A stretch of 64,000 nucleotides of DNA from Aliikangiella marina. GTDB taxonomy: Bacteria; Pseudomonadota; Gammaproteobacteria; Enterobacterales; Kangiellaceae. Both the position numbers and the translations under genes were made by a program. Shown in pieces: positions 31,053 through 34,675 of this stretch. The DNA lies in the NCBI RefSeq assembly GCF_007004765.1, contig NZ_VIKR01000007.1, positions 186,001 to 250,000 on the forward strand, in the 5' to 3' direction. The notes beneath the pieces are model-generated. The model saw only the letters and a program-made list of their open reading frames with translations, made no database searches and had not been told where the DNA came from. Numbering within the stretch: position 1 is the first letter of the stretch; every line of letters starts with the position of its first letter.

Positions 31053-32954
31053 ATGCTGATTTCATTAAATAGGTGGTTATTAGCTTTTTTAGTAAGTGCT
31101 GTATTAATCACATTAAAGCCCGTATCTAATCTGGCTCTGGCTGCTGAAGTCCACACCTCTGAAACTGTGTGGGCTTTTGCAGACTCTCACGGGGATTACC
31201 AAGAATTAACCAAGCTCCTCAAAACAGCTGAAATAATCGACGAAGACAATAATTGGCGTGCTGGTAAATCGATTCTAGTTTCCACGGGTGATGTACTGGA
31301 CCGTGGACCGGGCCCTCGCAAGATTTTCGACTTACTGATAAAGCTCGAGCAACAGGCTACAGAAGCAGGCGGTAAACTGCTTTTTTCTCTAGGTAATCAT
31401 GAAGTCATGATTCTCGTTGGCGATCTGCGTTATGTCGCACCTGCAGAATATGCTGAGTTCGAAGAAGATGAAACCGAAGCTTTGAGAGACCAATATTTTG
31501 AACGTTTCGTCAACTATCACCAAACTAAGCTCCGCAAAGAACAAAAAAATTCACGCCTAAAGATAGATAAGAAAAAGGTCCGCATAAAATTCGATGAAGC
31601 ATTTCCGAAGGGTTATTTCGCGCGTTATGAAGCATTTTCCCCACAAGGTAAATACGGAAAATGGTTGTTAAACAAGGATTTTATTAACAAAGTTAACGAT
31701 AGACTTTTTACCCATGGTGGGTTGTCGCCAGAACTAGTTGGTAAAACCTTAAACGAGGTGAATGCACAACTAAAAGGCGAGTTATTAACCTATGTCAATG
31801 CTTGGCACGATCTATTATCGGACGGCTCACTCACTCATGGCATTCCGTTTCGCCAAAGAGCAAAGAGCATAATCAACCAAAAAGAAGAATTTGTGACTCA
31901 GTTTAACAGCCAGGAAAATGCTTTTCTCTTTTCAACCCAAAGCCCCACTTGGTATCGTGGCGCGATTTATTGCCATCCTTTTTATGAAAATGAGTCGTTG
32001 CGAAATATCCTCGCTAGCTTTGACGCCAAACAAGTATTACTAGGTCATTCGGTTACCCCGACTCGGCGAGTCAATCAAAGGTTAAACAATCAAGCCATTC
32101 TAATGGATACCGGCATGTTGGGCGATGTGTACGGGGGCAGCGGTAATATTATTCAAATTATCGACGACAAACTATCAGTGTTAAATTCTTCGGGAGAAGT
32201 CTATCAGCCTGAAACCGCTTATCACACGGCAATAAATTATCCAACCAACCTAAGCCACGATGAATTAGTCAAACTCTTGGAAACGAAAGAAGCTGACAAA
32301 ACCGAAAAACTCAAGACCGGAATCACACGACCGTCTCGATTAACCTTCAATGTAAATGGCAATAAAATACGCGCGTTATCAAAGTACATTGACGACAGTC
32401 CAAATTTGCAAAATGAACGCAAACGAAAGCCTGAAGATATGTATGCCGACCGCTATCATAATGATATTGCCGCTTACCGTTTGAGCGAGCTGATGGGGTT
32501 CAAACTTGTTCCTATCTCAACCACTAGACCGATGGATGAGGGTAGAGGATTGGTTCAATACTGGGTTGAAAATTCCTACACCGAGTACGAGGCCAATGAA
32601 AAAGGCTGGGCATATGACGGACATTGTAGTTATGAAGCACAAATGAATATGATGCGAGTATTTGATCTGTTAATTCATAACTTCGACCGAAATCCAACGA
32701 ATATTTTAATCGAAGAAAACCAAGGCCAGCTTGTCTGGATTGATCATTCCCGTAGTTTTTCGTTTAGACGGAAATTACCGAGAGAAATCGATCGCTCGAA
32801 CATTAAACTTACTCCAGAAGTTAGAAAAGCGCTTACCGAGCTGACTAAAGATAAAGTAAAAAAATCAATGGGGGATTTACTCAATCGAAATCAGATTAAT
32901 GCGCTGATGAAAAGACGAGACTTAATTTTAAACCTTGATCCGTTAGATGATTAA
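31053..32954 (+). CDS. Exported fusion: Shewanella-like metallophosphatase plus HipA/Fam20/PI4K-like kinase domain
   Basis: A 633-residue protein with an N-terminal signal peptide (about 1-31). Residues 38-375 are a calcineurin-like phosphoesterase of the Shewanella-like phosphatase type. All metal motifs are present: D44-x-H46, GD80VLDRG, GNHE (114-117), H221 and H332. Residues 428-625 form a second domain: probable lysine K444 (RALSKYI), NDIAAYRLSELMGFKLVP (470-487), GLVQYWVE, then catalytic-type HNFDRNPTNILI (D545, N550) and metal-type WIDHSRSF (D564). That pattern matches the HipA/Fam20/phosphatidylinositol-kinase-like fold seen in bacterial proteins, with a full set of active-site residues. 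The protein could therefore add and remove phosphate outside the cytoplasm. Both activities are inferred. A strong terminator follows. Confidence 0.75.
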   Translation: MLISLNRWLLAFLVSAVLITLKPVSNLALAAEVHTSETVWAFADSHGDYQELTKLLKTAEIIDEDNNWRAGKSILVSTGDVLDRGPGPRKIFDLLIKLEQQATEAGGKLLFSLGNHEVMILVGDLRYVAPAEYAEFEEDETEALRDQYFERFVNYHQTKLRKEQKNSRLKIDKKKVRIKFDEAFPKGYFARYEAFSPQGKYGKWLLNKDFINKVNDRLFTHGGLSPELVGKTLNEVNAQLKGELLTYVNAWHDLLSDGSLTHGIPFRQRAKSIINQKEEFVTQFNSQENAFLFSTQSPTWYRGAIYCHPFYENESLRNILASFDAKQVLLGHSVTPTRRVNQRLNNQAILMDTGMLGDVYGGSGNIIQIIDDKLSVLNSSGEVYQPETAYHTAINYPTNLSHDELVKLLETKEADKTEKLKTGITRPSRLTFNVNGNKIRALSKYIDDSPNLQNERKRKPEDMYADRYHNDIAAYRLSELMGFKLVPISTTRPMDEGRGLVQYWVENSYTEYEANEKGWAYDGHCSYEAQMNMMRVFDLLIHNFDRNPTNILIEENQGQLVWIDHSRSFSFRRKLPREIDRSNIKLTPEVRKALTELTKDKVKKSMGDLLNRNQINALMKRRDLILNLDPLDD

Positions 32955-33010: not shown

Positions 33011-34675
33011 TTAAATTCTTTCTAAATGAGGACTCATGGGTAAAGAGTCAGACCAGCGAACATCAAACTCAACTTCACATCCCAACTCATCAGCATCTGT
33101 CACTCGCAATTTCAATTTCAATTCACCACTTGTTCCTTTTGGTGGATGAAAGGTGATGTGAAGGTTGTGTTTATCAAAAACAATCCATTCAGGTAGCTTA
33201 GTATTTTGCACCGTGGTTAAGAAATAACGCAGTGCATCGCCTGGATCGGGATCATAGAAAAGATCCTCTGGAATTTTACTGCGCATCCGAAAACCAGAAC
33301 TTAGCTCAAAGTTTGCTATTTCACCGATAATTTGCGGCGCATTGCCGGTCTGACTATCTTCATAATCGCGACCATAAGTCTTAGAAATTTTGTAGCAAAT
33401 CAATAACATCAATGCCGATAGCGCCAAATTAAGCCACACAAACTCCATCGTTTCCCAATTAAAAGAATTAAGCCCTACGTAGATAACGCCAAACTGAAGT
33501 AGATCGCCTAAACGCCAAACAAAGGTATCGATGGTTGTTTTTGCCAGGTATTTATCGTCCCTATCCAAGGGTAAGTACAACGCATTGCGAGTCGTATTAG
33601 CAATGGAGTAACTCGCTGAATTTTCAGCAATCATGGTTAAAAACGCGACGATAAAAATCGGGACTAACGCAAGCAATCCGTAACCCAAAATCATCACCAC
33701 TGGGAGTATAAGTACGCTACCCTTGATGCCTATCCATCGAAATAAACGGGCAACAAGAAACGTTTGCAACAAAAAACCGAGGGAGCTAACCCAAGTGTAA
33801 TAGGTTGAATAATAACGAGTAATTAAATCTGCTTCCGATAGGTTCGGACTGGTTGCGGCAATCGCTGCGGCGGTGTCTTTAACATAGGAGGCAAAAATAA
33901 ACTCTCCAGTTGTATTAATCCAATTCATTAAAAGTACAAAAGCAGCGACATAAATAAGATACTTTTTACTAAAAATTAATCGGAATCCTTCGAGCGCGGA
34001 AATATGCTCTTCTTGGTCTTCAACATCAATTTTGTGGTTTTTAGACTCTTCCGGTAACTTTAATTCTGCACGCATTGATAAGTAGGTAGCGCCTACCAGA
34101 CAAATAACCGCAGCAAATAACACTGAGTTAATACCCGCTTGTCCATAAACCCAATCAGCAGAAAGCGATCCAAACCAGGCCCCTAATGTGGCTCCAATCA
34201 TAATGGGAGGAAAAAGCCTTTGTCCCGTTTTTTGATTCATTAAATCCGCACAATAAGACCAAAAGTGGGAAACTAAGAGAACACCGTAAATACTCTGCCA
34301 AACATAAAACACCATCGGGGTTTTGATATCTATGGCGATTAATCCCAGGAAAATCAGAATATTAACAAAGAAAAATCCATTCACCATGACGGTCAGTCCA
34401 TAGCGATGAGACTTATCTTGGTAATGCTTATAGAAGATACCGTAAACAAAGACGACGAAACCGATAGTTAGTGCAGAAATGGCGTTGGCCAAACTCTTGT
34501 CCATCGCTGAGCCGTTGGTTAGGATAAGTGTTTCGCGAACGACTTTTAACAGATAATGAGAATAAAGCAGGAAGAAAGCGTTGCCAATCAACATCCAGGT
34601 TGAAGGACCTTCACCTGGTCGGATGCGGGTTGCTACTGATAGAAGTTTTTCCCCAAAATGCAGTCGATTAGCCAT
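33011..34675 (-). CDS. NTP/NDP-exchanger-like MFS transporter with C-terminal CADG-like beta domain
   Basis: A 554-residue protein. Residues 1-435 hold about 11-12 hydrophobic segments. The pattern (FFLLYSHYLLKVVRETLIL near the N-terminus, IANTTRNALYLPLDRDDKYLAKTTIDTF later) is typical of ATP/ADP-carrier-like MFS proteins of free-living bacteria. Residues 450-545 form a soluble beta-sandwich-like domain: FRMRSKIPEDLFYDPDPGD, then LRYFLTTV, LPEWIVFD and LKLKLRVTDADELGCEVEFDV. This is the cadherin/dystroglycan-like (CADG or He_PIG) pattern, normally found outside the cell, and I do not know it fused to this transporter family. Transported substrate is unknown. No signal sequence is visible. Confidence 0.72.
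   Translation of the reverse strand: MANRLHFGEKLLSVATRIRPGEGPSTWMLIGNAFFLLYSHYLLKVVRETLILTNGSAMDKSLANAISALTIGFVVFVYGIFYKHYQDKSHRYGLTVMVNGFFFVNILIFLGLIAIDIKTPMVFYVWQSIYGVLLVSHFWSYCADLMNQKTGQRLFPPIMIGATLGAWFGSLSADWVYGQAGINSVLFAAVICLVGATYLSMRAELKLPEESKNHKIDVEDQEEHISALEGFRLIFSKKYLIYVAAFVLLMNWINTTGEFIFASYVKDTAAAIAATSPNLSEADLITRYYSTYYTWVSSLGFLLQTFLVARLFRWIGIKGSVLILPVVMILGYGLLALVPIFIVAFLTMIAENSASYSIANTTRNALYLPLDRDDKYLAKTTIDTFVWRLGDLLQFGVIYVGLNSFNWETMEFVWLNLALSALMLLICYKISKTYGRDYEDSQTGNAPQIIGEIANFELSSGFRMRSKIPEDLFYDPDPGDALRYFLTTVQNTKLPEWIVFDKHNLHITFHPPKGTSGELKLKLRVTDADELGCEVEFDVRWSDSLPMSPHLERI

Follow-up and report, generated by a model that had tools for sequence, protein, structure and literature searches.

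A phosphatase-kinase fusion and its carrier-like neighbour

The window (the whole stretch of DNA analysed here, 64,000 nucleotides of Aliikangiella marina, Kangiellaceae; GCF_007004765.1, NZ_VIKR01000007.1:186,001-250,000, forward strand) holds on its plus strand, at 31053..32954, an open reading frame that runs from an ATG for 633 amino acids plus a stop. Its product, P0001, is a phosphatase-kinase fusion that is probably exported. The N-terminus looks to the eye like a Sec signal peptide, probably residues 1-31 (31053..31145, plus strand), with cleavage guessed to fall after LALAA. An earlier, sequence-only reading of this DNA had claimed such a peptide, and the family agrees: among 84 members from the best 80 of at least 541 relatives, 81 have an N-terminal stretch of 12 residues with a Kyte-Doolittle mean of at least 1.5, and the three below this threshold (L081, L095 and L117) may have mis-called starts.

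Residues of about 38-355 (31164..32117, plus strand) form a Shewanella-like PPP metallophosphatase domain. The Pfam Metallophos profile matches residues 38-335 over its gathering score (E 1.1e-11), the solved stand-alone Shewanella phosphatase matches P0001 in sequence at E 1.1e-31, and 2z72 is the best Foldseek match for the phosphatase part of the full model (E 3.7e-21). As in the Shewanella-like (Shelph/SLP) enzyme 1v73/2z72, all seven metal and catalytic residues are present (D44, H46, D80, N115, H116, H221 and H332), and the complete site of this type that had been read from the letters stands. The motifs are ADSHG (D-x-H-G), GDVLDRG (GDxxDRG) and GNHE, joined by H221 and H332, and the stretches GDxxDRG, GNHE and WYRG are common to P0001 and the Shewanella enzyme. 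The domain is also distantly ApaH-like. At residues 351-354 stands MDTG, a D-T-G with Met in first place; (I/L/V)D(S/T)G is a motif of bacterial-like PPPs (PMC2887360). We predict a bimetal PPP phosphatase, and it enters the main explanation below as such.

The C-terminal domain, residues 388-633 as modelled (32214..32951, plus strand), is confidently predicted to fold as an atypical kinase, nearest to Fam20 and then to PI4K type II. Alignment and profile comparison place the predicted ATP-binding lysine at Lys444 (32382..32384), the catalytic loop at D545-R546 to N550 (32685..32702) and the predicted metal-binding, DFG-like aspartate at Asp564 (32742..32744), all on the plus strand; K444, D545, N550 and D564 were confirmed in P0001, as were the seven phosphatase residues. 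Modelled alone, the domain reached a pLDDT of 92.3 and a pTM of 0.91. In Foldseek searches the full model matched 4kqb, a Golgi casein kinase of the Fam20 family (E 4.8e-8), and the kinase model matched Fam20C (DrFam20C1; E 1.2e-8, TMq 0.62), hydra Fam20 (TMq 0.67), PI4K-IIalpha (E 5.5e-7) and PI3K-type kinases. The sequence-only reading had named a kinase-like fold beforehand as one of the points on which this half depended, and that fold is what the model contains. In profile comparisons with solved chains, Fam20A (E 1.9e-10) and Fam20B (E 1.3e-9) come first, followed by Fam20C (E 2.7e-5), and PI4K-II is marginal (E 0.06). Among family profiles, PI3_PI4_kinase (PF00454) passes over residues 492-600 (E 6.7e-8, 33.2 bits against a gathering score of 27.1), Fam20C (PF06702) falls below its own (17.1 against 26.8 bits), and the best NCBIfam match, TIGR03843 (the SCO1664 family), lies far below its cut-off (52.4 against 172.4 bits). 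The earlier label for the domain was HipA/Fam20/PI4K, of which the Fam20 and PI4K parts hold. HipA as nearest kin was rejected, with the HipA_2/HipA-like profile (PF20613) at 18.7 bits against a gathering score of 27 and HipA absent among the best 50 of 1347 Foldseek matches.

P0001 resembles Fam20A/B/C in fold, in its probable secretion and in a matching helix with AAY/AAF and LDR, yet it is bacterial and fused to a phosphatase. Since its catalytic loop reads DRxxxN (DRNPTN) where Fam20A and Fam20B have DRHHYE, we do not call the domain a Fam20 member. With PI4K type II it shares the Pfam pass and the fold match, and unlike that family it is probably exported. FAM20 has been counted among eukaryote- or Metazoa-specific clusters (PMC9758233), and in a paper on bacterial pseudokinases (PMC12599244) Fam20 appears in the references only. 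P0001 has Ser478 (codon 32484-32486) at a position that is Asp in 81 of 84 members (best 80 of at least 541 relatives), most kinase-dead copies included.

Modelled whole by AlphaFold2 with 83 relatives, P0001 reached a pLDDT of 94.0 and a pTM of 0.91. A phosphatase-kinase fusion in one frame was the central claim of the sequence-only reading, and it is confirmed, with every named residue in place and both Pfam domains over cut-off. These Pfam scores, the match to a solved phosphatase and the constant presence of the kinase domain in long open frames argue that the fusion is not a product of chance. The kinase domain occurs in 22 of 61 related genomes (its own included), and because all 26 matches sit in open frames of 571-669 amino acids, no stand-alone copy was seen among them; full-length matches to P0001 in related genomes are 33-39% identical.

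The only cysteines of P0001 are Cys307 (31971..31973, plus strand), in a short insertion after the phosphatase WYRG, and Cys525 (32625..32627, plus strand), in the kinase domain. They come and go together: 79 of 84 members have both and 5 have neither (best 80 of at least 541 relatives), the latter all labelled Acidobacteria or their kin; on the tree the co-occurrence amounts to one change only. Both are kept in all 80 fusions sampled from the G226 family. Unlike P0001, the solved Shewanella enzyme and all six stand-alone relatives lack Cys307 and have no kinase domain, and five of the six have a gap at that position. One near-invariant cysteine per domain suggests, as the simplest reading, an inter-domain disulfide C307-C525.

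Beside the fusion, on the minus strand at 33011..34675, lies a gene for an ADP/ATP-carrier (NTT/TLC)-like transporter of 554 amino acids with a C-terminal Ig-like (He_PIG) domain; its profile and its neighbourhood make it our proposed supplier of ATP. Its likeness to the NTT carriers (TLC, PF03219) of free-living bacteria is seen in its family profile (A5), which matches the solved ADP,ATP carriers 9j3n (E 3e-13) and 9j3j (E 1.5e-6). The window's own carrier scores below the cut-off of TIGR00769 (31 bits, E 1.3e-7, against 387.2) and gives no match to Pfam TLC (PF03219) up to E 1. Thirteen other carrier neighbours of fusions divide into 9 over PF03219 (L039, L043, L045, L048, L065, L074, L110, L116, there as NTT-HEAT-cNBD, and L117) and 4 under it (L041, L049, L059 and L075). 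Two acidobacterial loci, L116 and L117, have an NTT-HEAT-cNBD carrier, another known architecture, 1.3-1.6 kb from a fusion that is KDND in one and KDDD in the other. In L042, L048, L052, L058 and L073, mostly Halieaceae, two consecutive carrier-like genes, a short and a long one, adjoin the fusion. He_PIG is over its Pfam cut-off at residues of about 453-531 of the window carrier, and the family profile of this domain also matches alpha-dystroglycan (E 4e-6).

The window carrier differs from those NTTs in this added Ig-like domain. It also adjoins the gene of a probably exported kinase, a context without counterpart in the main text of PMC5381601, where the word kinase occurs 0 times. According to that source NTTs are broadly distributed in free-living bacteria, all but three of those characterised belong to a single clade, and what fused NTTs do is not known (PMC5381601).

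Which active sites survive in the family

A scan of 84,980 species, each represented by a single genome, used one phosphatase motif and one kinase motif, a pair of patterns that leaves copies with both halves dead unfindable. At least 541 relatives of any architecture were found, and the best 80 loci were kept; these hold 83 fusions and make up, with P0001, the 84-sequence set. The taxonomic search proposed in the sequence-only reading has yielded at least 83 more fusions, from Gammaproteobacteria and Acidobacteriota. The genome of A. marina has a second one, L037 (G000:C2:537432-539174), which is 38-39% identical, has an intact kinase site and stands without an adjacent carrier. A divergent fusion, L111, comes from a MAG labelled Klebsiella pneumoniae, a label that may be a binning or naming error. 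The kinase domain is present in 79 of 107 genomes of the G226 family, and the counts are 4 of 53 in the family of G390 and, in a class-wide sample that is too sparse, 3 of 369 genomes (own included). One scan of viral contigs, with a single protein as query, found no viral relatives.

The phosphatase is nearly always intact and the kinase often is not. In the 84-sequence set (best 80 of at least 541 relatives) the seven phosphatase residues are all kept in 82 members and K444/D545/N550/D564 in 38; both sites are intact in 36, the phosphatase only in 46 and the kinase only in 2. Since 46 of 84 keep the phosphatase and fail the kinase test, the kinase/phosphatase switch proposed in the sequence-only reading cannot be every member's job. 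The four-residue test is strict, and activity may survive in part of these 46, for example in two KDDD members. The G226 family keeps all seven phosphatase residues in 80 of 80 fusions and all four kinase residues in 0 of 80 (80 of 96 places sampled); this sample shares some genes with the 84-sequence set, so the two sets of counts are not to be added.

Two members have a dead phosphatase (L075:11524 and L064:4339), and both retain all four kinase residues. Their loci, L075 from Aliikangiella sp. G2MR2-5 and L064 from a Kangiellaceae MAG, consist of a phosphatase-intact, kinase-dead copy, then the carrier, then the phosphatase-dead, kinase-intact copy; at a third double locus, L074, both copies are intact. 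The complementary pairs suggest that both activities are needed but that one chain need not have both. On the tree the two dead phosphatases group together, on very long branches that make their position unsure, and both pairs may stem from a single evolutionary event.

The manner in which the kinase residues are lost bears on what the intact copies do. The four are kept or lost together, nearly all-or-none: four remain in 38 members, three in 3, two in 3, one in 19 and none in 21 of the 84 (best 80 of at least 541 relatives). This lends indirect support to the clustering of K444, D545 and D564 on which the sequence-only reading had also made the kinase half depend. The count of 38 compares with a mean of 7.7 and a maximum of 15 in 2000 shuffles, from which shared ancestry is not removed. 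(Alignment A2 omits degenerate copies, and the invariance of the kinase residues within it is no evidence.) A tree inferred from the phosphatase columns alone requires a minimum of 8 changes of kinase state, of which 3 are forced by well-supported branches. D538, N543 and R546 (DNR) follow another course, being kept in 82 of 84 members (best 80 of at least 541), dead copies included, and in the G226 family, with R546 in 80 and D538-N543 in 78 of 80 sampled fusions. One could suppose that in every member the domain binds nucleotide to regulate the phosphatase, with intact residues that bind ATP but carry out no phosphotransfer. The 46 members that fail the strict test and the persistence of DNR in dead copies would suit such a role, as would the precedent of Fam20A, an ATP-binding pseudokinase that partners Fam20C and binds ATP without catalysis (PMC7948968). 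Yet the joint retention or loss of the four predicted catalytic residues, and the pairing of a kinase-dead with a kinase-intact copy in two double loci, suggest selection for catalysis, and we regard a purely regulatory domain as unlikely, if still a serious contender. We prefer to read the intact copies as active kinases; where the residues are gone, as in many lineages, the domain has probably been retained as a lobe of the phosphatase, with a regulatory or structural role.

Carrier adjacency and kinase state

The commonest neighbour of the fusion is ADP/ATP-carrier-like, found within four ORFs at 24 of 78 loci, window included (best 80 of at least 541); 3 further loci, where gene calls missed the anchor, were left out of this count. 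A GMC oxidoreductase, a Na:dicarboxylate symporter, an alcohol dehydrogenase and other neighbours look like lineage background, and beside the Kangiella fusions stand genes whose products we take to be ClpX and Lon.

Carriers tend to accompany intact kinases. Where the kinase is intact a carrier lies within 3 kb at 22 of 37 loci, and where it is not, at 2 of 44 (short flanks included; best 80 of at least 541; Fisher p 5e-8, ignoring phylogeny), which makes it doubtful that the protein is self-contained, as the sequence-only reading had it. Counted per gene, with 9 of 84 short-flank rows dropped, the figures are 23 of 36 intact against 4 of 39 not intact (same set), and two of those 4 genes are the kinase-dead partners of the complementary pairs. 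A tree-aware test found 3 independent pairs on well-supported branches, in which the carrier changed the same way as the kinase 2.4 times on average and the opposite way 0.1 times; with so few independent events the result is not significant (median p 0.5, range 0.25-1).

The association is sharper for close carriers, defined by a match of E below 1e-100. Of the 40 genomes of the window's family, some of which are incomplete, those whose kinase is intact have a close carrier, no more than 158 bp away, in 17 of 17 cases; those with degenerate kinases only (G428, G010, G014 and G020) have one in 0 of 4 cases, and those with no kinase-domain match in 0 of 19. Among the 61 related genomes, 18 of the 19 whose kinase is intact have a close carrier, each with a copy at a distance of 18-158 bp from a fusion. 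The one that lacks it is G039, and in G001 and G005 a further copy lies at another place. The order of the close pair varies, the carrier being upstream, downstream, convergent or sandwiched, which argues against mere inherited synteny.

Other observations blur the pattern. No carrier lies within 3 kb at 15 of 37 intact-kinase loci (best 80 of at least 541), several of which, L044, L054, L057, L061 and L063 among them, have full 8-kb flanks, and a carrier does adjoin the fusion at the kinase-degenerate loci L110 and L117. Intact or not, the kinase is often accompanied in its genome by distant carrier paralogs (E about 1e-45 to 1e-66). The G226 family, whose 80 sampled fusions all fail the kinase test, fits the pattern as far as close carriers go: one of its 107 genomes has such a carrier (G490, on a contig other than its fusion's), and seven more genomes have intermediate carriers (E 2e-93 to 4e-100), which in the three that also have a fusion (G438, G463 and G480) lie on another contig. 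At E 1e-20, 98 of these 107 genomes have a carrier match, and in at least 21 the contig of the kinase-dead fusion also has a distant carrier, 12-31 kb away (e.g., G454:C64, G469:C1 and G226:C7). Carriers are thus not absent from kinase-dead genomes, and this conserved synteny, for which we have no explanation, counts against the supply of ATP by the carrier that we propose below.

ATP supply outside the cytoplasm

To our knowledge the periplasm normally contains no ATP, and the ATP source of an exported bacterial kinase is an open problem. Our best reading of the locus, a tentative one that falls just short of what we would call probable, is an extracytoplasmic kinase/phosphatase supplied with ATP by its own carrier. 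The fusion would work in the periplasm or anchored in the envelope, its two domains opposed in action and probably tied together by the disulfide C307-C525. Its NTT-like neighbour would bring ATP into the periplasm, probably in exchange for the ADP that the kinase makes. The kinase would phosphorylate a target in the cell envelope, whether protein, sugar or lipid; the phosphatase would take off that phosphate or a related one, and the balance between the two would follow the ATP supply. The direct basis for this mechanism is the fusion, the predicted folds, the catalytic residues, the cysteine pair, the adjacency of the carrier and its tracking of kinase state in the counts; from these we infer the export of P0001, the disulfide, both activities, transport and its direction, and the existence of a target. 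Our confidence is limited by the 15 carrier-less intact loci, the paralog in the same genome, the distant carriers of kinase-dead genomes and shared ancestry. Ser478, the position of the window carrier below TIGR00769 and outside TLC, and the description of characterised NTTs as uptake systems (PMC5381601) also count against ATP supply.

Uptake is the starting point of a second alternative, periplasmic nucleotide salvage, in which the ApaH-like phosphatase would cut extracellular nucleotides, the carrier would import the products and the kinase-like half would sense nucleotide. The phosphatase's distant likeness to ApaH, the nucleotide uptake of characterised NTTs (PMC5381601) and the distant carriers in 98 of 107 genomes of the kinase-dead G226 family would all fit. 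The phosphatase residues, however, are kept in 82 of 84 members (best 80 of at least 541) and in 80 of 80 G226-family fusions, while 0 of 4 kinase-degenerate genomes of the window's family and 1 of 107 genomes of the G226 family have the close carrier. It is the kinase, not the phosphatase, that the close carrier goes with; this is our main argument for ATP supply over salvage, which we consider decidedly unlikely. That the fusion instead regulates the adjacent transporter by phosphorylation and dephosphorylation, for example of its Ig-like domain, would accord with the adjacency and with the Ig-like domain at the C-terminus of several carriers, and is improbable given that in G030, G032 and G034, where the match of the adjacent carrier frame (451-457 amino acids) ends before the Ig-like part, the pair persists.

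The reading in which the carrier feeds the kinase can be extended to a three-part system, an ATP-exporting ADP/ATP carrier and an exported, disulfide-tethered kinase-phosphatase chain, with the adjacent carrier lost where the kinase dies. We think of this full form as possible rather than probable. If true, it would explain one kind of uncharacterised NTT in free-living bacteria and would be a convergent parallel to the arrangement in the Golgi, where Fam20 kinases work with imported ATP. In other words, the locus hints at how bacteria might power phosphorylation outside the cytoplasm. Besides the source of ATP there is the question of what free-living bacteria need nucleotide carriers for, and the gene pair makes both testable together. 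Among the matches listed we found no paper that treats this fusion or an NTT next to an exported kinase, which is weak evidence of absence. The family is itself a natural experiment, with kinase-intact, kinase-dead and complementary half-dead copies, so that the role of each half could be separated with natural proteins. In placing opposed activities (predicted here) in one polypeptide, P0001 resembles HPr kinase, AceK and PFK-2/FBPase-2, which are cytosolic and built from other domains.
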